Part shown: piece by piece, positions 1 through 12,902 of the stretch
Numbering within the stretch: the stretch's first letter is position 1
Layout: each line of letters opens with the position of its first letter
Assembly: GCA_902803635.1 (NCBI GenBank)
Contig: CADCQU010000033.1
Coordinates: 1 to 12,902, forward strand
Direction: 5' to 3'
Length of the DNA stretch: 12,902 nucleotides
Origin: an uncultured Lachnospiraceae bacterium
GTDB taxonomy: Bacteria > Bacillota > Clostridia > Lachnospirales > Lachnospiraceae
Notes under the pieces: model-generated
What the model was told of the DNA's origin: nothing
Seen by the model: the letters and a program-made list of their open reading frames with translations, nothing else
The model's database searches: none
Made by a program: the position numbers and the translations under genes

Positions 1-433
1 TAGCAGCAAATGTCGGAATCGCTTTACCAAGGGCCTCGACGAGACCCATCATAAGACCGGACGCAACGATGGCCGGCAGGATGGGGACGAAGACGTCGCC
101 CGGGGTCTTGAGGAGCCTCTTCCACAGCGGGGCGCGGGAAGCGGCGGCCTTCTTAACATCCTCCTTCGAAGCGGCGGAGGCGCCGGTGACGGACAGGAAC
201 TCGTCATACACTTTGTTGACGGTACCGGTACCAATGATGAGCTGGAGCTGTCCGTTGGACTCGAACATACCCTTCACGCCATCAACTTCTTCAAGAGCAG
301 CTTTGTTGACCTTCGAGTTGTCCGCGATGACCAGGCGGAGCCGGGTCGCGCAGTGTGCAGCACTGATGACGTTGGAGCCGCCACCAATGTTTTTAGAGAT
401 TTCCTCTGCACATTTTCTGTAATCCAGTGCCAT
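1..433 (-). CDS. PTS sugar permease EIIBC, Glc family, probably sucrose-type (partial, C-terminus outside window)
   Basis: This membrane permease imports and phosphorylates a sugar using phosphate passed from HPr and EIIA. The 144 visible residues run off the window edge. Residues 1 to about 80 form an EIIB domain with the phospho-cysteine motif AAHCATRLRL (Cys28), followed by GVKGMFESNGQLQLIIGTG, which is typical of the sucrose/beta-glucoside/trehalose branch. A linker of about 20 residues leads into the first EIIC membrane segment (FVPILPAIVASGLMMGLVEA). The ATG at 431-433 is preceded by GGAGG with an 8-base gap, so the start is secure. Sucrose is inferred only from the nearby scrB and amylosucrase-type genes; beta-glucoside or trehalose remain possible. 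No EIIA domain can be seen because the C-terminus is missing. Confidence 0.9.
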   Translation of the reverse strand, partial: MALDYRKCAEEISKNIGGGSNVISAAHCATRLRLVIADNSKVNKAALEEVDGVKGMFESNGQLQLIIGTGTVNKVYDEFLSVTGASAASKEDVKKAAASRAPLWKRLLKTPGDVFVPILPAIVASGLMMGLVEALGKAIPTFAA

Positions 434-509
434 ACTTGTTTCCTCCCTTAGTTGAATTTTTTTTTGGCAAACCTTTGGGTTACGCAGGAACTGGCTTTTT
501 AAACCGATT

Positions 510-558
510 CCTTATAATATAAGGCATTTGTTGAGATAATCCGCTGACGACAAATGCC
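510..558. repeat. Inverted repeat of the GGCATTTG word plus adjoining AT-rich palindrome
   Basis: The 157-bp gap between the amylosucrase-type gene and the permease gene contains a perfect 9-bp inverted repeat, GGCATTTGT (523-531) and ACAAATGCC (550-558), with an 18-base loop. A 15-bp palindrome, CCTTATA-A-TATAAGG (510-524), overlaps its left arm. On the minus strand the hairpin follows the amylosucrase stop by about 33 bases, but no run of T follows, so it would be a weak terminator at best. The TATATTAT stretch could be the -10 region of the permease promoter, but I found no convincing -35. No LicT/SacY-type antiterminator sequence was recognised. Confidence 0.6.
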
Positions 559-590
559 GAATATCCATTTTTTATCCGTACAGTTCTTAC

Positions 591-3092
<2,502 letters not shown>

Positions 3093-3260
3093 AGCCACCT
3101 CCTAATGTGACGCTCTGTGCCGCATTTGCCGCGCGGAAAACGCTTCCCAACACAACCTCCCGCAATACGCGGCAGGGCGTTTCGCCGTGCCAAAACTGCC
3201 TCCGGCGCAAGCCAACGCAGGGCACGACAAGGCGCAATGCCGCCCTTGCATAATTCCACT
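3093..3260 (-). other. GC-rich 5' leader of the amylosucrase-type gene with possible 49-residue Cys-rich ORF
   Basis: If transcription starts near 3260, the message has a leader of about 168 nt. It is clearly GC-rich, while the DNA just beyond 3260 is very AT-rich. Several short stems are possible, for example GGCG-AAA-CGCC, CCGC-GTATT-GCGG and a longer GTGCC/GGCAC pairing. An ATG at 3249-3251 opens a 49-codon frame rich in Cys, Ala and Arg (starts MQGRHCALSCPALACAGGSF) that ends at the TAG at 3102-3104, directly abutting the AGGAGG of the downstream gene. There is no clear ribosome binding site for it, so translation is doubtful. It may be a structured RNA leader, a leader peptide, or a dispersed repeat. 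It contains one GGCAAATG copy at 3123-3130 (as CATTTGCC). Confidence 0.45.
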
Positions 3261-3266
3261 ACTATA

Positions 3267-3295
3267 AATATAATCTAACCAGCATTTTTTAGCAA
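3267..3295 (-). promoter_or_regulatory. Predicted sigma-A promoter for the amylosucrase-type gene
   Basis: On the minus strand, TTGCTA (3295-3290) and TATATT (3272-3267) are separated by 17 bases and lie in AT-rich DNA. The hexamers match the consensus at 4 of 6 and 5 of 6 positions. The start point would be near 3260. This is a sequence prediction only. Confidence 0.5.
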
Positions 3296-3338
3296 ATTGT
3301 TTTTTTCTTTTCGTGATTATCCCCATTTTTTGTTGATT

Positions 3339-3361
3339 TTTTTGTGCAATTTGCACAAAAA
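3339..3361. promoter_or_regulatory. Operator-like palindrome 1 in divergent promoter region
   Basis: A perfect palindrome with 11-bp arms around one central base: TTTTTGTGCAA-T-TTGCACAAAAA. Its core is TTTTGTGCA-ATT-TGCACAAAA. It lies about 90 bp upstream of the predicted amylosucrase start point and about 167 bp upstream of the predicted gpmA start point. The symmetry suggests a binding site for a dimeric regulator, whose family I cannot name. Confidence 0.55.
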
Positions 3362-3427
3362 TTTTTCCTTTTTTATGCGTTTAAGGCACCCGGCGCCCCT
3401 AAATGTATAAATTATTTTGTATAAATC

Positions 3428-3452
3428 TTTTCTGTACATTCTGCACAGAAAA
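3428..3452. promoter_or_regulatory. Operator-like palindrome 2, related to palindrome 1
   Basis: Arms TTTTCTGTACA (3428-3438) and TGCACAGAAAA (3442-3452) are complementary with one mismatch around the centre TTC. It shares the pattern TNTGTRCA-N3-TGCACANA with palindrome 1, 90 bp away centre to centre. It is about 77 bp upstream of the predicted gpmA start point. Two direct copies of TGTATAAAT (3404-3412 and 3418-3426) lie immediately to its left. Confidence 0.5.
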
Positions 3453-3501
3453 ATTTCTTCCTTCTTTTTATATTTTATGCTTTCTTCCAACAGGTGCTTT
3501 G

Positions 3502-3510
3502 TGGTATCAT
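3502..3510 (+). promoter_or_regulatory. Predicted extended -10 promoter for gpmA-scrB
   Basis: TGG-TATCAT gives an extended -10 (TG at 3502-3503, -10 hexamer 3505-3510, 5 of 6 matches). No good -35 is present, which fits an extended -10 promoter. The start point would be near 3517, leaving a 5' leader of about 60 nt. The preceding bases, TTTGTGGTA, resemble those of the kinase promoter. Confidence 0.45.
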
Positions 3511-3577
3511 TAAATTGTTATTAGAAACTGTACGGACACGTCCGGAACGAAGCCAGAAAGACGAGGAGCGAGCTGCC

Positions 3578-4285
3578 ATGATGAAGTTAGTCCTGATCCG
3601 CCACGGCGAGAGTGAGTGGAACAAGCTGAACCTATTCACCGGCTGGATGGATGCCGATCTCAGCGAGAGGGGCCGGATGCAAGCCAGACGCGCCGGACAG
3701 ACCTTGAAGGCCGGGGACTATGATTTCGACATCTGCTACACCTCCTTCCTCAAGAGGTCCATCCACACATTGAACAATATTTTAGACGAGATGGACCGCA
3801 ACTGGCTGCCGGTCGTCAAGACCTGGAAGCTGAATGAGCGCCACTATGGCGAGCTGCAGGGTCTCAGCTGGAACGACGCTATCGCGAAATACGGCGAGGA
3901 GACGATTCAAAACTGGCGCCGCAGCTTTGATATGAAACCGCCCGCACTGGCCCCGGAGGACGAACGTTCCGCGAAGAAGGCCGTCATGTACCATGACGTT
4001 GATCCGACCCTCCTTCCGGATACCGAGAGTCTCATGGAAACCATTGCGCGTGTCGTCGCGTTCTTCAACGAATCCATCAAGCCTGAGATGGAGGCCGGCA
4101 AGCGCGTCCTCATCTCCGCCCACGCCAATATGCTCCTCGCCCTCCGGATGTACTTCGACAACCTGACACAGGAGGAGATTCCAGGCATCAACATCCCGAA
4201 CGCTATCCCGCTGGTCTATGAGTTCGACGACGCTTTCCACGCAGCCAGCCACTATTACCTGGCCGACCCGGAGACCCTGAAATAA
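3578..4285 (+). CDS. gpmA: 2,3-bisphosphoglycerate-dependent phosphoglycerate mutase
   Basis: A cytoplasmic glycolytic enzyme interconverting 3- and 2-phosphoglycerate through a phospho-histidine. It has 235 residues, close to the usual length of bacterial GpmA. Visible landmarks are LVLIRHGESEWN (Arg8, His9 as phospho-His), LFTGWMDADLSERG, TSFLKRSIHTL (Arg60), KLNERHYGELQG (Glu87) and LISAHANMLLAL with the second catalytic His182. The classical motif at this last site is HGNSLRAL; here Gly is Ala and Ser is Met. The ATG at 3578 is favoured because GAGGAG (3563-3568) is 9 bases upstream; the adjacent ATG at 3581 would be 12 bases away. scrB follows after 49 bp with no terminator, so the two are probably co-transcribed. 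The gene contains no copy of the GGCAAATG word. Confidence 0.93.
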   Translation: MMKLVLIRHGESEWNKLNLFTGWMDADLSERGRMQARRAGQTLKAGDYDFDICYTSFLKRSIHTLNNILDEMDRNWLPVVKTWKLNERHYGELQGLSWNDAIAKYGEETIQNWRRSFDMKPPALAPEDERSAKKAVMYHDVDPTLLPDTESLMETIARVVAFFNESIKPEMEAGKRVLISAHANMLLALRMYFDNLTQEEIPGINIPNAIPLVYEFDDAFHAASHYYLADPETLK

Positions 4286-4334
4286 GCCACGACGCTTTTT
4301 CATTTGTCAAATCCACGACGGAAAGGAGGCCCCC

Positions 4335-5957
4335 ATGAAGACCTGGACCAAGGAGGAACGCTACCGCGTCCTCACCTCGCCGGAAGAGATCCGGCCTCTG
4401 CACGAAAGCATTTGCCACTCGGCCTACCGACAGGCCTTCCACATCCAGCCGACCACGGGTCTTCTCAACGACCCGAACGGCTTCGTCTACCACGACGGCG
4501 TCTGGCACCTCTTCTACCAGTGGTGTCCCTGGGGAGCCGTCCACGGACTCAAATACTGGTACCACACGACCTCCCGCGACCTCGTCCACTGGCGGAACGA
4601 GGGCGTCTGCATTTGCCCGGACTCCGACCAGGACAACAAGGGGGCCTACTCCGGCTCCGCGCTCCCGGGCGAGGACGCGCTCCATCTCTTCTACTCCGGC
4701 AACCACCGCGAGCCCGACTGGACGCGCATTTCCTATACCTGCGTGATGAAGCTGTTCGACGACGGGCGGCGGAAGAAGCTGTCCCACCCGATTTTCGGGC
4801 CGCACCCGGACTATACCGAGCATCAACGCGACCCGAAGATCGTGTACGTGGAATCACAGGGCTACTACTATATTCTTCTGGGTGCCCAGTCGAAGGACAA
4901 GCACGGCGGCATCATCCTGTACCGCTCGAAAACTCTTACGGAGGGCTGGAGCTTCGCGGGACGGCTGAGCGTCCCCGGCTTCATGGAATTCGGCGACATG
5001 TGGGAGTGCCCGTCGATTGAGCGTATTTCCGGGAAGGACGTGCTCATCTTCTGCCCGCAGCATTTAAAGCTTCCAGGCCGCGGCGACACCATCCACCACA
5101 ACGGCTACCTGCTCGGCACGATGGACTGGGAGAGCCTCACGTTCACGCCGGACGGCAGCTTCCACGTCCTCGACTTCGGCCTCGACTCCTACGCGGCCGA
5201 GTGCGCGGCGAACCTTGATGGGAACGGCCGCGCGGTTCTCTCGGCCTGGATGGGCCTTCCGGATGCCGCCTACCCGGTAACCGACGAGGAGGAGTGGTCC
5301 GGCTGCCTCACGCTCCCCCGCGAGCTCCGCGTCCGCGGCCGGCGCCTCATCCAGACGCCGCTGCCGGGCCTTCGCCTGCTCCGCCAGAAGGCACTGGATT
5401 CCGCCTCCCGCATCCTTCCGCAGGCCGCCGAGCTTGACCTCTTCCCGGGCATGGACCTTGTCCCGGCAAATGCCGACGACGACGCCTGGGGGGCTGCCCC
5501 GAAGGGTCTCGTGGTCGGCGCCGTCGCGGCGACGCCCGGCTCGGAGACCCCGGCAAATGCCCACGAGGCGGCGATGCCGGAGGATATTTTCCCGAAGGAG
5601 GGCTGGGAGGATGGGCCGTTTACGCTCCGCCTCTTCACGAAGCAAGACGGCTCGGGGGGCATTTGCATCTCCTACGACCCGGCGGCCCTCATGGTCACCG
5701 TGGACCGCTCGGGGATGACCCACCGCTTCAACACCGAGCAGGGCGAGGCACGGAGCCACGCGCTTACCGGGCCGCTCCGCCACCTCCGCATTTTCCTTGA
5801 CCACAGCTCCGTGGAAATCTTCGTCAATGACGGCGACGCCGTCTTCTCCTCCCGCGTCTTCCCGACCGAGGAGGAAAGGGGCTATGTCGTGGAGGGGCGT
5901 GCCGCGCTGCGGCTCTTCCCGCTCCGCGCGGCCGTGCTGAACGATTTTGTCATCTGA
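4335..5957 (+). CDS. scrB: Sucrose-6-phosphate hydrolase (GH32)
   Basis: This cytoplasmic GH32 enzyme splits sucrose-6-phosphate, the product of sucrose PTS uptake, into glucose-6-phosphate and fructose. The protein has 540 residues. The five-bladed propeller carries the nucleophile in LLNDPNGFVYHDGVWHLFYQW (Asp46), QRDPKIV (Asp166) and the acid/base in MWECPSIER (Glu224). The C-terminal beta-sandwich is recognisable by LRIFLDHSSVEIFVNDGDAV near 485-503. Residues about 376-424, at the entry to the beta-sandwich, look like a non-conserved Ala/Asp/Gly-rich insertion carrying two PANA tetrapeptides. The start is supported by AAAGGAGG ending 5 bases before the ATG. The lack of a signal peptide and the PTS gene nearby favour sucrose-6-phosphate hydrolase over a secreted fructanase. 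Confidence 0.92.
   Translation: MKTWTKEERYRVLTSPEEIRPLHESICHSAYRQAFHIQPTTGLLNDPNGFVYHDGVWHLFYQWCPWGAVHGLKYWYHTTSRDLVHWRNEGVCICPDSDQDNKGAYSGSALPGEDALHLFYSGNHREPDWTRISYTCVMKLFDDGRRKKLSHPIFGPHPDYTEHQRDPKIVYVESQGYYYILLGAQSKDKHGGIILYRSKTLTEGWSFAGRLSVPGFMEFGDMWECPSIERISGKDVLIFCPQHLKLPGRGDTIHHNGYLLGTMDWESLTFTPDGSFHVLDFGLDSYAAECAANLDGNGRAVLSAWMGLPDAAYPVTDEEEWSGCLTLPRELRVRGRRLIQTPLPGLRLLRQKALDSASRILPQAAELDLFPGMDLVPANADDDAWGAAPKGLVVGAVAATPGSETPANAHEAAMPEDIFPKEGWEDGPFTLRLFTKQDGSGGICISYDPAALMVTVDRSGMTHRFNTEQGEARSHALTGPLRHLRIFLDHSSVEIFVNDGDAVFSSRVFPTEEERGYVVEGRAALRLFPLRAAVLNDFVI
5462..5561 (+). repeat. Pair of 13-bp direct repeats CCCGGCAAATGCC inside scrB
   Basis: Identical 13-bp sequences at 5462-5474 and 5549-5561, 87 bp apart (29 codons, same frame), both encode Pro-Ala-Asn-Ala. 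They bracket the non-conserved insertion of ScrB and each contains the window-wide word GGCAAATG. Confidence 0.8.
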
Positions 5958-5977
5958 TTTTCCTTTTCCTTTCTCTC

Positions 5978-6014
5978 GGAGGGGGACGGGGCTTCGCCTT
6001 GTCTCCCTCTTTTT
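5978..6014 (+). terminator. Rho-independent terminator of gpmA-scrB
   Basis: A 14-bp stem with a three-base TTC loop, GAGGGGGACGGGGC / GCCTTGTCTCCCTC (three G-T pairs), is followed by TTTTT. It begins 21 bases after the scrB stop codon. Confidence 0.9.
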
Positions 6015-6025
6015 CACATCTCTTT

Positions 6026-6071
6026 CAATTCACGTTACAGTTCAGGTGGACCTGAACTGTAACCAATTCAC
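6026..6071. mobile_element. 30-bp palindrome flanked by 8-bp direct repeats: possible miniature element or remnant
   Basis: GTTACAGTTCAGGT (6034-6047) and ACCTGAACTGTAAC (6050-6063) are perfect inverted arms separated by GG. The direct repeat CAATTCAC abuts both ends (6026-6033 and 6064-6071). This is the layout of inverted terminal repeats inside an 8-bp target duplication. There is no internal coding sequence, so at best it is a minimal non-autonomous element or a deletion remnant. It has no following T run, so it is not a standard terminator. A regulatory hairpin is the alternative. Confidence 0.5.
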
Positions 6072-6103
6072 TTAAAATTCTTGTTTTTTTGATAATTCTT
6101 GAA

Positions 6104-6132
6104 TTGAAGACTTGTTTTTTCTGTGGTAAACT
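6104..6132 (+). promoter_or_regulatory. Predicted sigma-A promoter for the hybrid kinase gene
   Basis: TTGAAG (6104-6109) and TAAACT (6127-6132) are separated by 17 bases, with TGG just before the -10 as an extended -10. The start point would be near 6139, giving a leader of about 47 nt. The upstream DNA is AT-rich. Confidence 0.5.
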
Positions 6133-6185
6133 AAGGAACAGTTGTTTTTTAACCGATAGCCTAGGAACGGGGAGGGAAAAAGCCC

Positions 6186-8579
6186 ATGGAAAGCAACACG
6201 CAAGTGTTCGATATGTATAAGAGAATCGTCGACCTTTCGAACACCGGGGTCGTGGTCATCGACGATGCGGACCTCTCGGTTCTCTATGCCAGCGACAGCA
6301 TCGTCACCTTCTTTCCGGAAGCCGCCGGAAAACCGATCGTGGGCCGTTCCCTTAATTCGCTCCTTGCGGACATTGACCCGGTCGCGGTGGAAGCCCTCTC
6401 CGACCGGATGCGCGGCGACCTGCCCCTCCACTGGGAGCACTATTTCCGCGCCTACGGCCGCGAATATCATTTTTATGGCCAGCGTACCGACTTCGAAGGC
6501 CACAGCGTCTTCATCATTTATATGACAGATAACACGGAAGCCTACAAGGAGAAGACCCGTATCCGCAACTACTACCATTCCCAGATTACCATGATGAGCG
6601 GCGTGTCCCCCTACGCGATTGGGATGTACCGCATGAACCTGACGCGGAACGAGTTTAACCCGCAGATTCTTGGACGCTCCTCCTCGGGCCTTCGGAACCA
6701 GATTCCAAGGACCGTGGACGAGTTCTTCGACTACGCCTACGAGCGCTGCGGCACGCTCCGGGACGAGAAGCGCTTCAGCAACATCTTTTCCCGCGACCGC
6801 CTGCTCATGAGCTTCTCGGAGGGCTTCCCGAACCATTCGCTCCAACACCTCTACTATATGGATTCCGACCGTCCGATCTGGATTATGACCGCCGTCAACA
6901 TGGCGAGGAATCCGGACAGCGGCGACGTGGAGGCCGTTCTCTACACCGTGGACACGAACCGTGAGAAGATCACAGAGGAAATGCTCACGGCCATCACGGA
7001 AAATGACTACGAGCGCATTTCCCTGATTGACACGACGACCGGGCTGGGCATCTCGCTGCGCGACATGCGTAGACAGCCGTCCCGCGACCCGCTTCGCCAA
7101 GGAATCAGCTATGACAAAAATATGGAGTTCTACTTCGCCGAGAAGCAGGACGTCGAGAACCGCGAAGAAGTCATCGAATCCCTGCGGCTTGCCACGGTCA
7201 TGCGGCAGCTGGAGGCCCGCGAGAGGGCCGCGCAGCGCTCCTCCACGGAGAGGCCCGTCTATGAGCGTACCTACAGCTTTGTCGAGAAGGGCCGCCGGCT
7301 CTACAAACGGGTCGCCTTCTACTCCGTCAGCAAGGCGGAAAAACTCATTTGCCATACCATCCAGGACATCACGGCCATCACGGAGCAGGAAAAAGAGGCT
7401 TACGAGAAGGCAAAAAATGCGCTTGATGAGAAAAATGTCATTCTCTCCCGCATCAGCCGCGATATGCGCACCCCGTTGAACGCGATCACGGGACTGACCA
7501 ACCTGGCCCGTACCGAGTTACCGGACCACTCGGCCGTCGAGCGTTACCTCGGCGAGATTTCATCCTCCGCGGCAAATGTCGGCGCCATCATCGAGGAGAT
7601 TCTCGCGATTCGACAGATCGAGGAGAAGCAGATCAGCCTGCAGCCGGAGGTCGTGGAGCTTTCCAGCCTCGTGGCAAATGCGCAGGAAGCCTTGGAGGGA
7701 GCCATCCAGGAGAAAGGGCAGCTCCTCCGCGTGGAATTTGACGGGGTGGAGACACAGAAAGTATTGGCCGACCGCTACCGCGTGGAGACCATCCTTCGGA
7801 AGCTCCTTGAGAACGCGAACATTTTCACCCAGGAGGGTGGGAGGATCCGCCTCCTCGTGACCGAGAACAAGCGCGAGGGCCAGAAGGTCTTTATCAATTT
7901 CGTCATCACCGACAACGGCTGCGGGATGTCCGAGGAGAAGCTCCGTCGGCATTTCGGTCCCGCCGCCGAGACCCTGGACGTCAACGAGAAATCCTATGAC
8001 CGGATCGGCCTTGGGCTTGCCATCGTCCGCAGCTACGTGCGGGCGATGGAGGGCGAGCTGGGAGCCGTAAGCCGCGAGGGCCAGGGTTCTGAAATCACCG
8101 TGACGCTGCCATTTGACGTGCCTTTCGAGGCTCCGTTCGAGGATGGCGCGGGATTGGATCAGGAGAATGCAGGGAAGGAGGCCTTCGATTTCGATTTCAG
8201 TGGAAAGCGCATCCTCCTGGTGGACGATCATCGGCTGAGCCGGCAGATCGGCAAGAAAATGCTCGAGCATGTCGGCGCGACGGCCGAGACCGCCAAGAAC
8301 GGCATGGAGGCCGTCCACCGTTTTGAAAAGACAAATGGCGCCTACGACATCATTCTCATGGACATCCGGATGCCGGAAATGGACGGGCTGGAAGCCTGCC
8401 GCCAAATCCGGAAGCTTCCCGTCTCGGGAGCCTGGACCGTGCCCATCATCGCGATGACTGCGGATGCCTTCGAAGAGGACATCCGCAGCTCCTTCGACGC
8501 GGGCATGAACGCCCACCTCGCCAAGCCGATTGACCCCATGCTCCTCTACGAGACGCTGGAGCACTTTTTGCCGAGATAA
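6186..8579 (+). CDS. Orphan soluble PAS hybrid sensor kinase with receiver domain; H-box histidine replaced by Arg
   Basis: A 797-residue protein with no membrane segment or signal peptide. Residues about 8-118 look like a PAS sensor domain, and about 138-260 and 270-400 look like further divergent PAS-type regions. The dimerisation helix reads LSRISRDMRTPLNAITGL (420-437); the usual MSHDIRTP/MSHEIRTP has its phospho-accepting His here as Arg425 (codon CGC, 7458-7460). The ATP-binding domain keeps the N-box (LLENANIFTQEGG, 540-552), G1 (DNGCGM, 576-581) and G2 (GLGLAIV, 608-614). The receiver (about 675-797) keeps Asp680/Asp681, phospho-Asp726 (LMDIRMPEMDG), Thr758 and Lys780. There is no DNA-binding output or separate regulator gene nearby. 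GGAGGG lies 9-10 bases before the ATG. The architecture is clear; the signal is unknown. Confidence 0.88.
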   Translation: MESNTQVFDMYKRIVDLSNTGVVVIDDADLSVLYASDSIVTFFPEAAGKPIVGRSLNSLLADIDPVAVEALSDRMRGDLPLHWEHYFRAYGREYHFYGQRTDFEGHSVFIIYMTDNTEAYKEKTRIRNYYHSQITMMSGVSPYAIGMYRMNLTRNEFNPQILGRSSSGLRNQIPRTVDEFFDYAYERCGTLRDEKRFSNIFSRDRLLMSFSEGFPNHSLQHLYYMDSDRPIWIMTAVNMARNPDSGDVEAVLYTVDTNREKITEEMLTAITENDYERISLIDTTTGLGISLRDMRRQPSRDPLRQGISYDKNMEFYFAEKQDVENREEVIESLRLATVMRQLEARERAAQRSSTERPVYERTYSFVEKGRRLYKRVAFYSVSKAEKLICHTIQDITAITEQEKEAYEKAKNALDEKNVILSRISRDMRTPLNAITGLTNLARTELPDHSAVERYLGEISSSAANVGAIIEEILAIRQIEEKQISLQPEVVELSSLVANAQEALEGAIQEKGQLLRVEFDGVETQKVLADRYRVETILRKLLENANIFTQEGGRIRLLVTENKREGQKVFINFVITDNGCGMSEEKLRRHFGPAAETLDVNEKSYDRIGLGLAIVRSYVRAMEGELGAVSREGQGSEITVTLPFDVPFEAPFEDGAGLDQENAGKEAFDFDFSGKRILLVDDHRLSRQIGKKMLEHVGATAETAKNGMEAVHRFEKTNGAYDIILMDIRMPEMDGLEACRQIRKLPVSGAWTVPIIAMTADAFEEDIRSSFDAGMNAHLAKPIDPMLLYETLEHFLPR

Positions 8580-8589
8580 TATATGCAGT

Positions 8590-8626
8590 CCCCCTCAGGG
8601 AAGATGTTGCACGACGAAGCCGACCG
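8590..8626. repeat. Degenerate copy of REP-like GC-rich repeat
   Basis: This segment starts with CCCCCTCAGGG and continues through GCACGACGAAGCCGACCG. It aligns base by base with the intact unit at 8649-8696 but carries several substitutions, most of which break the symmetry of the hairpins. It begins 10 bases after the kinase stop. Confidence 0.6.
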
Positions 8627-8648
8627 TTTGCTCGTGCCCGTCCTCTCG

Positions 8649-8696
8649 CCTCCCCCTCAGGGGGAGGTGGCACGGCGAAGCCGTGACGGAGAGGGG
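8649..8696. repeat. REP-like repeat with two consecutive hairpins
   Basis: CCTCCCCCT-C-AGGGGGAGG (8649-8667) is a perfect palindrome. It is followed by CACGGC-GAA-GCCGTG (8671-8685) and the tail ACGGAGAGGGG. No T run follows, so it is not a standard terminator. The unit resembles GC-rich intergenic repeats seen many times in Clostridia genomes, as I recall; that is not checked here. Confidence 0.65.
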
Positions 8697-8729
8697 TCAC
8701 CAAAAGTGGCTTTCTCATCGAATTAAATA

Positions 8730-8760
8730 GGGAGAGGTAGGCGAACGCCGAACCTCTCCC
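8730..8760. repeat. Long hairpin downstream of the kinase gene
   Basis: GGGAGAGGT (8730-8738) pairs with ACCTCTCCC (8752-8760), and an inner GGCG-AA-CGCC extends the stem. No T run follows. It may stabilise the 3' end or be part of the repeat cluster. Confidence 0.6.
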
Positions 8761-8769
8761 ACTCCACGC

Positions 8770-8806
8770 GAGCCGCGTGCTGCCTTTGGCAGCACGCGGC
8801 TCTTTT
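8770..8806 (+). terminator. Rho-independent terminator of the kinase gene
   Basis: A perfect 15-bp stem, GAGCCGCGTGCTGCC / GGCAGCACGCGGCTC, has a TTT loop and is followed by TTTT. It lies about 190 bases past the kinase stop, behind the repeat cluster. Confidence 0.9.
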
Positions 8807-8815
8807 AATAAATCA

Positions 8816-8838
8816 GGAGGCGGGATTTACCCGCCTCC
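8816..8838 (-). terminator. Possible terminator of the large surface-protein gene
   Basis: A perfect 9-bp stem, GGAGGCGGG / CCCGCCTCC, with a 5-base loop. Read on the minus strand it is followed by TGATTTATT, a weak T-rich stretch. It is about 80 bases past the stop of the minus-strand gene. Confidence 0.4.
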
Positions 8839-8851
8839 CATCGTTTCCGCG

Positions 8852-8892
8852 CCACAAGAACATTCCGCACTTCGTGCTTCCTGTCCTTGTGG
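8852..8892. repeat. Two-part hairpin just downstream of the surface-protein gene
   Basis: CCACAAG-A-ACA pairs with TGT-C-CTTGTGG (one mismatch), enclosing symmetric TTCC bulges and an inner GCAC-TTC-GTGC stem. It sits 27 bases past the minus-strand stop codon. Its role is unknown; RNA end protection or a binding site are possibilities. Confidence 0.5.
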
Positions 8893-8919
8893 TGCTCTCA
8901 CGCTGCTTTCTCTCAGAAA

Positions 8920-11900
8920 TCAATTTCCACTTCTTAGAAGCGCCTCCGCCGCCTTGTAATAGCGGTAAAGAGCAAGCATGATATTGTTCCTCTTCTCGTT
9001 CTCCGTGTTCTTGAGAACCGCCTGGGCGTAGGAAAGCGCCGAGACCTTCACCGTCGTCGTGCCGGCTTTCGTCTTCAGCCGCACGTTATACTCCTTGCCA
9101 AGCTTATGTACCGGGATGTCCAGGATCCTGACACAATACCGTCCGTCCTTCAGCTTCTCGGGCTGGACCGCCGTGCCGTCCACGGTGGCCGTGACCTTCC
9201 CCGCGTACCCTTCCTTCATGGTAAAGTAGAGATAGATGCCCGTCCCGGAATCGAGATAGAGCGAGCAGGAGGTCTTCAGGACATCCTTCATCTTCTTAAC
9301 TGACATCTGTTTATTCTTCAGATCCTTCTGCGCATTGGAAAGCTCCGTTTTCGAATAGCTTCCTTTGTAAGAAACGTCCATCTCCAGATGATCGGTGCCG
9401 ATCGTCCATCCGCGGATTTCCGACAGATACGGCTGCGCGTGATGCCCGTAATCGGCGAGCGCATGAACAAGCGCCGTAACCTTTGCGCCGAAGCCGCCCG
9501 TCTCGTCGAAATCCAGGACATACTGCTTGACGGAGTACGTCGTTGCAAGCGTCCGCTCCTCACCGTCCTTGAAGTAATGGAAAACCGCCTCAATCTCGTC
9601 CGCCATTTGCACGGCATTCACAAAGCGTGTAAACCGGTAATACGTACGGGCGGCATTCATTGCATTTGCATCATACGGAGCAACCGTCTTATCCCCGCAA
9701 ACGGTAAATTCCACGTAGCTCTCGTTGTAGTCCACCCCTTCGATTTGCGGCAGGTTCATGTAGAAATTCACACCGATCTGCCCAGTCAGGACCAGCGACT
9801 GCGTCTTGAAGGCAATGAGCTCTTCCACCTCCGGTACCTCTACCAGCGCCATATTGAAATAATTCGCATGCTCCGCGTTGTACCTCTCCACGGTACCGTC
9901 TTTTCGGACGATCTGATAATCCAGCGAAGAATCGCCTCCCTCCGTACTGGCCACCCGCGCAATCACCAGAACCTCGCTGTTTTCCTCGGCCGGAATCGAG
10001 ACCGATTCGCCGCGACCGACCACGACCGACTCTCCCTTTTGAAGCCTCTGTGATTCCATATAATCGTTAAAGTCAACCACCCAGATTTCGAAGCTCTCCG
10101 CCGGGGCATCGTCACTGATGTTCACCTTGACGGCACCACCACGGTCATCCGGCTCCGCATGCATCCATCGGTTGTCAACGGCTTCCGCCACGCTTCCGGG
10201 TTCTGCATGGAAATACATCTCGGGCAGCTCGGGATATTTCTTTTCGTAGAACGCATAGGCCGCATCCTCGAACTTGTTAAATGCGGATGCCCGCGGCTCC
10301 CACCAGTTCACATTTACGGTATATGCATAATCGTCGCCCTTGTCGTTCTCCAGCTTAAATGTCACAGGACCGTTGCCGGTGAAGCGCACCTTGATCGCAA
10401 ACCTTTTCCCGTAGGTTCCGCATTCGGCGGATTCCATGGACAGCACCTCGACATTGTCCCCCTCATAGGTGAAGTGGGTCCCTGCATTCTTCAGGATAAC
10501 GCCATTTACGATCCCGTACAAGGTCGTCTCATACACCTGTCCTGCTTTCAGGCTGGAAGGTTCCGGGAAATTTTGCTCCCAGACAAGGCTGGAATTTGGC
10601 AAGCTCTGCCATTCGGTAGCTTCCTCCTGACCGCCGGAAGTTCCCGTGGCCTGGTGGACCAGGTCGCCAGCAAAAACCTCAATCAGCCTGTCGAAATACG
10701 CATGCTTATCGGCGGTTCCGGGGAAGGCCTCTTCGACAACCGTAATGGTCACGGTGTGCGGCGTAAACTCCGGGTTCTCCCCAAAGCTGATGATCTGTAT
10801 TTCTCCCCCGTCTGAAAGCTCTATCGGCTCGAAGCCCGCAATGTCGCTGGATACGCGAATCTTGCCATGGAAATCCAGGGCGATGCTTTCCGCCTCCGTC
10901 GTAAACTGGAAGCTTGCGCCGACACAGCCCAAGGCAAGGGTTTCGTAAAATGGCTCCTCCCCATTTCTCCAGGACGTGATATTCTTTTGGAAGACCCAGT
11001 CGCCGCCGCTGCCGGTAACCGGTTGGCCTTCTGTATCAAAATAAGTAAACAGACCGTTGGTGTTCGTGATATCCAGTCCTTTTGCCTCTTCGGTAAACGT
11101 AACGGTTATATCCTGATAAGAATTGGTTCTTCTGTCCAGGATGCGGATAAAGCTTACACCCGTTTTATCTCCGCGCAAAATCAGCGTTCCGCTGCCATGA
11201 CCGTCCTGATAGCTTCCGGGCTGCCAGATGAGTACATCCGTCCTGCGCTTCGCATTCTGTTCGTTCCCGGAGGCATCTCCCCCCTGTATCTTTCGATCTG
11301 TCAGCTCTTCGACGCTTATCTTCGGCTCCCTTCTTCCGAGCGTGGTGGCGAAGGATACCGGGAGGCGAAGCTGCGTCCCCACGGGCACCTCCAAATGTCC
11401 GGGGACTGTGAAGGACGTGGCGTGCTCAATCCTGGCATCGCAGCGGTTGTTCGTGCCGTTATATTCATTGTGCGCGGACGTATCAAGCCCGAATTCGTCC
11501 GTCGTCACCTCGTCGCCGTCGCTGAAAACCTCCACGGCAAACTTCAGGGAGCCTGCAGTTGCCTTGCTCCTGTCTTCTCTGAAAATCGTGAAGGCTTCCG
11601 CTGGTACCGTGATCGTCCCCCGGATACGCCGTCCATAGCCCGAACGAATCCCGTTCAGGCGGAGGATTCCCCGCGAAAGCTCGTCACCAGCTCCGGAAGT
11701 GCCCCTGCGCAGGGCCTCCTCCTCTCCCACCGTCAGATTATGGTTGCTTATGTCGAGAGGGATATAAATCATCTCGTTCCAGTCAAGGCCTTCCCCGTTA
11801 AGCTCCCGTACATTCGATGCCAGATCCGGATCATGGACGCCGTAGGAAAACTGCAGGTAGACGTTTTCGGCATCCTCCGTCCCGCTGTTTCCTACAAAGA

Positions 11901-12902
11901 GATCAACGTCCAAAAGGATGTCCCCCTTCTCATCCAAAGCAAGGCTCCCGTTGTCCTTTCTGGAAAGCGAGATGCTTTCCTCCACGAAATCCAGTTCCGG
12001 CCGCTTCTGAATCGTATAAATATCCTTGAGCGCGGCAAAATAGGGATCCTCCGCATAGGACGGATCCTCGTTAACGACGAGGAAAAAGCCCGCACCCTCC
12101 GGAAGCGTTGCAGGAAGCGTGAAATCACCGGTAAGCTTTACCTCCCGCCCGGGGTATATATTATCCGTAATCTTCCAGGCTGCCAGCTTTGTATGCGGCA
12201 AATCGTCCCCATGTACGCCGAGCGTTACGGTAATGGGATTGTCCTCGGACCCGCGAATACTGATGTCGCCCGTATTGCTAAAGGACAGGTTCGCCGTCAG
12301 GTCGGTCCCTGCGGTAAACTGTTCGCTCACAAAGGACAGCTTCGCCTGTCCGATGTGCTGCTGGCCCACGCCGTAGCTGATTGCATAAACGCCCAAGCCC
12401 TCCTTAAAGGCAGCATCCTCGGGGGGCTCCGCGCCGGAGGTCAGGAAACGTTCACCCTCCGACTCCCGGTAGGCAAGATACCGCATCATGCCCTGTGTCA
12501 GGATGGTCAGGGTGGTGTTGGACCTGGTAAGGTTCGTCGCATGACCTTCCCCAATCTCTGCGTCCTCTGTCTTGTCAGCCTTCACGCCAAGCGCAATCTG
12601 CAGGTTGGAAAACTGGAGCTGGTCCATCCCGCCTTTTCCCTGGCCTTCCCCGTCATTGTAGCCTTCCAGCTCGCCTAGATACGCCTTTTCCGCCTCCTCG
12701 TCCGACCAGCCGTATTTCGCCGCGTCCTCGTAGACATCCATATGACGCATTGCGAGAAGTGTCCCGCCGCCCCATGCTCCATTCTCACTGTCAAACTTGC
12801 TTAAATAGATGCCATTATTTGTCGTATTCTTCACGGTGGCAACATAAACGGTCACAAGGTTACCATCGCCATCCTCGCCAAAGGCAAAGTCTGTCCGGTT
12901 GA
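8920..12902 (-). CDS. Large probable cell-surface/secreted multidomain protein (partial, N-terminus outside window)
   Basis: An open frame of at least 1326 residues that continues past the window edge; the GTG at 12855 is only an internal codon, since the frame stays open upstream to the edge. I do not recognise a catalytic domain. The sequence is rich in beta-strand patterns, Asn, Thr and Gly and poor in Cys. Two stretches resemble CARDB-type adhesion domains: SEQFTAGTDLTANLSFSNTG (about 12260-12345) and the segment ending VDLFVGNSGTEDAENVYLQF (about 11830-11995). The last 290 or so residues (8923 to about 9800) start with SLVLTGQIGVNFYMNLP, include ALVHALADYGHHAQPYL and end with VKVSALSYAQAVL and ALYRYYKAAEALL. 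I recall this C-terminal pair from extracellular proteins of gut Clostridia. No LPXTG anchor or C-terminal membrane segment is present. Export is inferred because any signal peptide is off-window. Confidence 0.75.
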   Translation of the reverse strand, partial: NRTDFAFGEDGDGNLVTVYVATVKNTTNNGIYLSKFDSENGAWGGGTLLAMRHMDVYEDAAKYGWSDEEAEKAYLGELEGYNDGEGQGKGGMDQLQFSNLQIALGVKADKTEDAEIGEGHATNLTRSNTTLTILTQGMMRYLAYRESEGERFLTSGAEPPEDAAFKEGLGVYAISYGVGQQHIGQAKLSFVSEQFTAGTDLTANLSFSNTGDISIRGSEDNPITVTLGVHGDDLPHTKLAAWKITDNIYPGREVKLTGDFTLPATLPEGAGFFLVVNEDPSYAEDPYFAALKDIYTIQKRPELDFVEESISLSRKDNGSLALDEKGDILLDVDLFVGNSGTEDAENVYLQFSYGVHDPDLASNVRELNGEGLDWNEMIYIPLDISNHNLTVGEEEALRRGTSGAGDELSRGILRLNGIRSGYGRRIRGTITVPAEAFTIFREDRSKATAGSLKFAVEVFSDGDEVTTDEFGLDTSAHNEYNGTNNRCDARIEHATSFTVPGHLEVPVGTQLRLPVSFATTLGRREPKISVEELTDRKIQGGDASGNEQNAKRRTDVLIWQPGSYQDGHGSGTLILRGDKTGVSFIRILDRRTNSYQDITVTFTEEAKGLDITNTNGLFTYFDTEGQPVTGSGGDWVFQKNITSWRNGEEPFYETLALGCVGASFQFTTEAESIALDFHGKIRVSSDIAGFEPIELSDGGEIQIISFGENPEFTPHTVTITVVEEAFPGTADKHAYFDRLIEVFAGDLVHQATGTSGGQEEATEWQSLPNSSLVWEQNFPEPSSLKAGQVYETTLYGIVNGVILKNAGTHFTYEGDNVEVLSMESAECGTYGKRFAIKVRFTGNGPVTFKLENDKGDDYAYTVNVNWWEPRASAFNKFEDAAYAFYEKKYPELPEMYFHAEPGSVAEAVDNRWMHAEPDDRGGAVKVNISDDAPAESFEIWVVDFNDYMESQRLQKGESVVVGRGESVSIPAEENSEVLVIARVASTEGGDSSLDYQIVRKDGTVERYNAEHANYFNMALVEVPEVEELIAFKTQSLVLTGQIGVNFYMNLPQIEGVDYNESYVEFTVCGDKTVAPYDANAMNAARTYYRFTRFVNAVQMADEIEAVFHYFKDGEERTLATTYSVKQYVLDFDETGGFGAKVTALVHALADYGHHAQPYLSEIRGWTIGTDHLEMDVSYKGSYSKTELSNAQKDLKNKQMSVKKMKDVLKTSCSLYLDSGTGIYLYFTMKEGYAGKVTATVDGTAVQPEKLKDGRYCVRILDIPVHKLGKEYNVRLKTKAGTTTVKVSALSYAQAVLKNTENEKRNNIMLALYRYYKAAEALLRSGN

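Follow-up and report, generated by a model that had tools for sequence, protein, structure and literature searches.

An abundant octamer resembling DNA uptake words in an uncultured Lachnospiraceae genome, with candidate dialects in its relatives

The DNA uptake sequence (DUS) of Neisseriaceae is present in up to 3,770 copies per genome, and its dialects share a 3-base core (PMC3630211). The uptake signal sequence (USS) of Pasteurellaceae, counted as a 9-mer, has 1,465 copies in H. influenzae (PMC7811141), and PpdA/ComN is its predicted receptor in that family (PMC12616744). These two are named as the only families known to pick out DNA through a short word (PMC12616744, PMC7811141), a mode of uptake called an exception among competent species (PMC12040237). 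A screen of Veillonella parvula for over-represented words is described as giving no clear candidate (PMC5397411). HIP1, an 8-mer of cyanobacteria, is tied to methyltransferases, and its 1-base deviations are biased to outer positions (PMC4390886). This report concerns the octamer GGCAAATG (or CATTTGCC), which recurs in a 12,902-base stretch of DNA (the window; positions 1 to 12,902 of contig CADCQU010000033.1, assembly GCA_902803635.1) from an uncultured Lachnospiraceae bacterium. The preliminary description of the window had called the octamer an uptake-sequence-like word on which selection seems to act at the DNA level. It had proposed counting the word genome-wide against codon-preserving shuffles, in non-coding DNA and in related genomes, examining its strand bias and spacing, and looking for com and type IV pilus genes. 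The analysis favors the same reading, and we estimate a probability of roughly 0.6 that GGCAAATG serves this Clostridia species as a recognition word of the DNA uptake type, with dialects in its relatives.

Like the Neisseriaceae DUS, GGCAAATG is a short non-palindromic word on the scale of one to a few thousand copies, found in coding and intergenic DNA and in both orientations. The relatives share a short core with changed flanks (CTG for the DUS, AAATG here), and the genome encodes a type IV pilus and ComEC. The DUS is GCCGTCTGAA and its receptor is the minor pilin ComP, whereas the word described here has an unrelated sequence, belongs to an unrelated lineage and has a predicted role in uptake. 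By its letters, the word falls outside the Neisseriaceae DUS family. It shares with the USS the same copy scale, an apparent spread through point mutation and a conserved inner core (GCGG in the USS). In contrast, the USS is AAGTGCGGT, unrelated to GGCAAATG, which has no AT-rich flank tracts and for which both receptor and uptake machine are putative. HIP1 is also a genome-wide over-represented 8-mer with near-matches at outer positions, but it is a palindrome tied to methyltransferases and GGCAAATG is asymmetric. Chi and KOPS sites are short over-represented words that are strand-polar, whereas GGCAAATG occurs in both orientations without strong polarity over 46 contigs, in line with the preliminary remark that both orientations occur, unlike Chi.

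The home genome (2,415,941 bases in 411 contigs, 88.65% complete) contains 2,177 copies of GGCAAATG (1,040 + 1,137), or 0.90 per kb, compared to 49 copies (19 + 30) of the reversed word used as a control. Stretches of 53 of the 411 contigs make up a 383-kb sample in which GGCAAATG is the most over-represented 8-mer, with 360 copies against 20.3 expected. Twelve of these contigs were picked from a listing of word-bearing contigs, two of the other 41 were fetched for their ComEC or pilus genes, and six of the 53 are all N, with no letters. The word-chosen contigs have 1.05 copies per kb, and 254 copies lie in the 282 kb of the other 41. Because the latter density, 0.90 per kb, matches that of the genome, contig choice is not driving the enrichment. 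The word is present in 46 of the 47 readable contigs and in 34 of 35 when the chosen ones are set aside. By listed counts and rounded sizes, GGCAAATG reaches at most about 0.18 per kb in 199 family and 290 class genomes. Among the 41 other genomes counted in the genus, G231 has 751 copies in 2.6 Mb, G218 has 871 in 3.1 Mb and the rest have at most about 0.13 per kb. A genome of another genus (G376, family f1) has 344 copies in 2.1 Mb against 19 of the reversed word and is possibly a weaker carrier. The sole readable sampled contig without the word (L171) is 7.3 kb long with a GC content of 0.50, below most; it encodes an RlaP-type protein, a sensor kinase and an MscS channel and is possibly foreign or misbinned.

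Genes in the sample were called with a simple codon-based frame chooser, and two shuffles served as nulls. The 270 genes contain 304 coding copies, compared to 19.4 ± 2.8 after a synonymous shuffle (about 16-fold) and 49.5 ± 5.4 after a codon shuffle that keeps codon junctions (about 6-fold). The 6-fold value is conservative because the word itself has raised the frequency of some codons that the junction-keeping null retains. Each of the six combinations of frame and orientation lies above both nulls. The largest class is one sense frame with 137 of 312 coding copies, and sense and antisense copies number 178 and 134, respectively (p = 0.015). Intergenic DNA has 43 copies in 53.3 kb versus 2.6 expected, about 16-fold. 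In the same 270 genes, GCAAAT spells 171 of the 225 Ala-Asn pairs that precede G, compared to 28 of 161 before other bases, and Ala-Asn before G is itself frequent, with 225 pairs against 161 before the three other bases combined. The strand chi-square over the 46 contigs is 50.9, where simulation gives a mean of 45.8 without polarity and 97 (range 70–125) at 70:30, so strong polarity of the Chi/KOPS kind was rejected. Word spacing is near-random apart from a slight surplus of close pairs (49 at less than 100 bases versus 33 ± 5.5), and word-free gaps longer than 3 kb occur about as often as at random (11 versus 10.1). These data establish the word and its action at the DNA level: selection or drive acts on DNA, because the word exceeds both shuffles, fills six frames, is enriched between genes and lacks strong polarity. 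The preliminary claims that the word recurs in several reading frames and that selection seems to act on DNA are borne out by the comparisons it had proposed, namely the several-fold excess over both shuffles, the intergenic enrichment and the two orientations without strong polarity.

Two proposals about word placement were not upheld. Inverted close pairs are common for the Neisseria DUS at terminators, and a terminator-hairpin role was considered here; none of the three close intergenic pairs is inverted, and convergent spacers are word-poor (one copy in 4.0 kb), the divergent spacers being richest (12 in 7.9 kb). Word deserts were considered as mobile islands and rejected, since the number of gaps is random and the 10 proteins tested from word-free stretches include components of transporters, a sensor kinase, an MscS channel and an RlaP-type protein, the others having no family.

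The wider consensus is approximately (C/T)GGCAAATGC with the core CAAATG, and the flanks show no further motif or AT tract beyond about 10 bases. Mismatches were compared to an expectation computed with CAAATG masked. Those at the first three and the last positions are in 1.7- to 12-fold excess. Of the 12 mismatches inside AAAT, eight are below the masked expectation, three are near it and one (third A to C) is at twice its value; against codon shuffles, eight of the 12 do not exceed 0.4 and two to three lie above 1. One outer mismatch, CGCAAATG, shows no excess over the junction-keeping null. The mismatch spectrum shows a strict core between tolerant flanks, the pattern of a recognition motif.

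The origin of individual copies was examined by comparing the home genome to G231, the nearest sampled species by ComEC (67% identity in the main match; others at most 52%). The comparison covers 25 word sites in 22 ortholog-like pairs, a small sample in which 22 sites align gap-free, two are gapped at the site and one is outside the alignment, these three having no ungapped counterpart listed. At the gap-free sites, G231 has one intact word and 21 versions with 1–6 mismatches. Amino-acid identity is 0.69 at word sites compared to 0.77 overall, and pairs such as SENA versus SANA and QAGA versus QANA suggest an apparent amino-acid cost, given the presumed direction of change. Within this small sample, the words appear to arise via point mutation rather than insertion.

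In the relatives, all 7- and 8-mers were ranked against junction-keeping shuffles with no words preselected; the fetched pieces of two relatives are N. GGCAAATG is the first-ranked 8-mer in both the home genome and G231, where it has 55 coding copies versus 10.2 and nine intergenic copies versus 1.2. The first 7-mer of G218 is GCAAATG (49 versus 14.8). The words of G204 are AAAATGCC, AAATGCCG and CGCAAATG. GGAAATG is found in G212 on both strands (241 versus 103.8, and 30 versus 10.1 between genes) and ranks fourth in G223 (64 versus 31). The word of G219 is GAAAATG, that of G221 is the GAAAATG-type AAAATGA, and G235 has a moderate word, TGCAAAT (17 versus 4.5). A second ranking used a plain Markov expectation and the top-20 7-mers of 18 species samples. 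The core found most often is AAATG, in 40 of 360 words with the next core in 20, compared to 23 of 1,360 words in 68 other-species loci; words that overlap within one motif do not count independently, and eight of the 40 come from the home genome. At least one AAATG word is in the top 20 of 15 of the 18 samples, with zero in G200, G206 and G230. This ranking left out G201, G209 and G211 (3–9 kb only) and 12 of 80 other loci that are under 9 kb. We read the AAATG words as dialects sharing one core, with an enrichment that is modest outside the home genome and G231 and with small samples. The comparison of related genomes proposed at the outset gave the same word in G231 and weaker AAATG-core words in several congeners. 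A count of GVAAATG versus its reversed control was composition-confounded, showed no split by pilus presence and is not used as evidence. Four other Clostridia records (L047, L049, L060 and L073) have 8, 3, 3 and 4 AAATG words, respectively, in their top-20 7-mers and are candidates for further dialects.

The com and type IV pilus genes sought since the preliminary description are present in the home genome. One contig (C50; L240) contains a co-directional type IV pilus operon with PilB, PilT, PilC, PilD, PilM and prepilins. A 280-residue open reading frame without a family is followed by two small open reading frames with N_methyl (prepilin) matches, one over the cut-off, and by a 794-residue open reading frame whose start matches N_methyl weakly and which contains a GLUG motif. 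PilB (MshEN + T2SSE), PilT and PilC come next, and a 259-residue open reading frame without a family lies between PilC and PilD. PilD and PilM precede a PilN-like open reading frame, so called from place and shape only, an open reading frame at the PilO place that matches T2SSM weakly, and a prepilin that clearly matches N_methyl. A second contig (C204; L186) encodes ComEA (SLBB + HhH) and a full-length ComEC. PilB, PilT, PilC and PilD are 80–93% identical between the home genome and G231, compared to 65% for ComEC. The higher identity of the pilus operon may reflect recent exchange or strong constraint. The best 120 of more than 7,000 PilB relatives include Blautia sp. and a Clostridia bacterium. 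PilB exceeds 400 bits in seven of 42 genus genomes, all of them sampled, and each has at least two AAATG words; the same holds for G221, G214 and G215, which have no such PilB. A single PilM match above 40 bits is found in 11 of the 42, one of which (G200) is without PilB. The ComEC family is found in 38 and DprA in 40 of the 42, G231 included. A Tad-type ATPase is common in the genus (about 200-bit matches, the Tad reading being our own), and a Tad-type system could be the filament instead of the type IV pilus.

As far as sequence can tell, the best-supported account is that GGCAAATG works like the DUS and USS. Word-bearing DNA would be bound by a surface filament, for which the type IV pilus of the same genome is the likeliest candidate, and ComEA and ComEC would import this DNA as a single strand that then recombines with the chromosome. 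Word-creating point mutations would spread because word-bearing alleles are taken up more often. The word would pile up inside genes and in non-coding DNA alike, whatever the orientation or frame, even at an amino-acid cost, and related species would have changed the flanks into dialects while keeping the core AAATG. The preliminary suggestion of an uptake-sequence-like word is supported at this level; uptake itself is a prediction, and pilus genes and words coincide imperfectly across the genus. We put only slightly better than even odds on the broader proposal of a third independent origin of sequence-labeled uptake, in Gram-positive-type Clostridia, with AAATG dialects across a large uncultured genus and a pilin unrelated to ComP. 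Among the papers listed by a literature search, with subscription journals and bioRxiv outside its reach, none concerns an uptake word in Clostridia. Campylobacter needs a methylated site on incoming DNA. If the proposal is true, DNA self-labeling would have arisen three times or more, natural transformability would be predicted for these uncultured gut-type anaerobes, and they would provide a new system for asking whether uptake words serve to recognize kin or arise as a side effect of biased binding.

Several observations count against the uptake reading. Pilus genes do not strictly track the words, as G221 and G235 have words and no strong PilB or PilM match, and G204 has a pilus and AAATG words with no ComEC match in a 94% complete genome. 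No DprA match was found in the home genome, which is likely an assembly gap because that genome is incomplete. The three prepilins, compared by sequence to solved structures, matched other pilins or nothing, and none of the hits is named ComP. Inverted close pairs between genes number zero of three, the word-free stretches are not clearly mobile DNA by the 10 proteins tested, and contig strand balance, which rules out a 70:30 polarity, is still compatible with a weak 60:40 polarity. The dialects are subject to similar doubts. Apart from GGCAAATG, the dialect words reach no more than about 2- to 6-fold enrichment, and even 80 pooled loci of other species show a 1.4-fold enrichment of GGAAATG. 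The five best words of G200, G206, G217, G230, G214 and G215 are without the AAATG core (the samples of the last five are 16–20 kb and have little power), as are the best coding 7-mers of G213. Dialect labels cluster weakly on a ComEC tree from which one of 30 rows was dropped as too short, with 18 of 200 shuffles as low. Finally, the depletion of core neighbors is unlike the prediction of a simple drive-mutation equilibrium and may reflect strong or recent conversion.

The same depletion is relevant to a HIP1-like process, in which a methyltransferase recognizes CAAATG or a longer form and repair converts near-matches, and the word accumulates without any role in uptake. Tolerant outer positions and depletion of most core neighbors are found here too, and the loose link of the words to pilus genes in G221 and G235 fits such a process. 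However, HIP words are palindromic and GGCAAATG is not, and the relatives vary the flanks around an asymmetric core as DUS dialects do; we consider the methyltransferase explanation, the main rival, unlikely. The near-random distribution of about one copy per kb over nearly all readable contigs is also consistent with the site of a chromosome-wide DNA-binding protein, acting in nucleoid organization, recombination or segregation, that requires its site once per kilobase. Guide sites of the Chi/KOPS type are strand-polar, whereas word orientation within the contigs of the home genome fits no polarity, and the density drops from 0.90 to 0.29 per kb between the nearest sampled relatives, which makes a structural site of this kind rather improbable.

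The 137 of 312 coding copies in one sense frame could point to codon or codon-pair context, that is, Ala-Asn written as GCA AAT before G, combined with chance. This idea is refuted by the 134 antisense copies and the roughly 16-fold intergenic enrichment; six classes are enriched and GCAAAT is favored mainly before G, and very little probability attaches to it. The fragmentation of the assembly into 411 contigs raises the question of an assembly or binning artifact or a dispersed mobile repeat. The word is present at 0.90 per kb in 34 of the 35 unchosen readable contigs, and we regard this explanation as refuted, with a negligible chance of being right, because the flanks are unconserved past about 10 bases and a second species has the same word.

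The window (contig C33) was recounted. The 23 CAAATG/CATTTG hexamers and 11 GGCAAATG/CATTTGCC octamers of the preliminary description were reproduced exactly. Its 15 copies of GCAAATG/CATTTGC also hold in number and position, except that one start is 9604, not 9603. In 200 dinucleotide shuffles, the octamer averages 0.44 copies (maximum 3) and the heptamer 1.65 (maximum 5), and GGCAAATG is the top-frequency 8-mer of the window, with 11 copies versus 0.5 expected. In the six genes examined, the observation that Ala-Asn is GCA AAT in seven of seven cases before G holds; the five cases before another base are GCG AAC (three), GCC AAT (one) and GCG AAT (one). Both orientations are seen, and one copy is non-coding, as had been noted.

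The genes of the window are ordinary-looking and encode a PTS EIIB, an alpha-amylase, a histidine-phosphatase-family phosphoglycerate mutase, a GH32 sucrase and a hybrid histidine kinase. The alpha-amylase-type gene (591–3098, minus strand) contains minus-strand octamers at 1160–1167, 1316–1323 and 1879–1886. The between-gene copy, at 3123–3130 (minus), is upstream of both this gene and gpmA, which has zero hexamers, as stated before. In the GH32 sucrase-type gene (4335–5957), the octamers at 4409–4416 and 4610–4617 (minus) are antisense, and those at 5465–5472 and 5552–5559 (plus) are sense and encode Ala-Asn. The hybrid histidine kinase gene (6186–8579) has one antisense octamer at 7346–7353 (minus) and two sense Ala-Asn octamers at 7571–7578 and 7673–7680 (plus). 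Partial copies with seven of the eight bases, GCAAATG, are located at 6–12 (plus), at 5660–5666 (minus) in the GH32 gene, and at 9604–9610 and 9663–9669 (both minus) in a 1311-residue open reading frame (8920–12855) that has no Pfam family. This 4-kb gene has three hexamers, again as claimed, and zero octamers. The closest relatives of the GH32 protein are at most 61% identical and come mostly from Lachnospiraceae, Clostridia and other Firmicutes assemblies among the best 80 of 241, which points to a Clostridia bacterium, probably one of the Lachnospiraceae. The alpha-amylase-type gene encodes, at 591–1250, a long Ala/Pro/Glu-rich tail with repeated blocks of the KPKRKRTTRKK type, which is unusual for such an enzyme.

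Other words are over-represented in the home genome. A dispersed repeat in the sample (L031–L042, L147–L186) is marked by CAGAATGACA, with 59 copies versus 0.6 expected, and AGCGAAGCGA, with 51 versus at most 1.4, and similar words, CAGGATGAC and AGCGAAGGA, are found in G218. The pair AGGGGGAG/CTCCCCCT is strongly over-represented, with 103 copies versus 10.7 in the sample and 17 versus 0.4 in the 19-kb pilus contig (L240).

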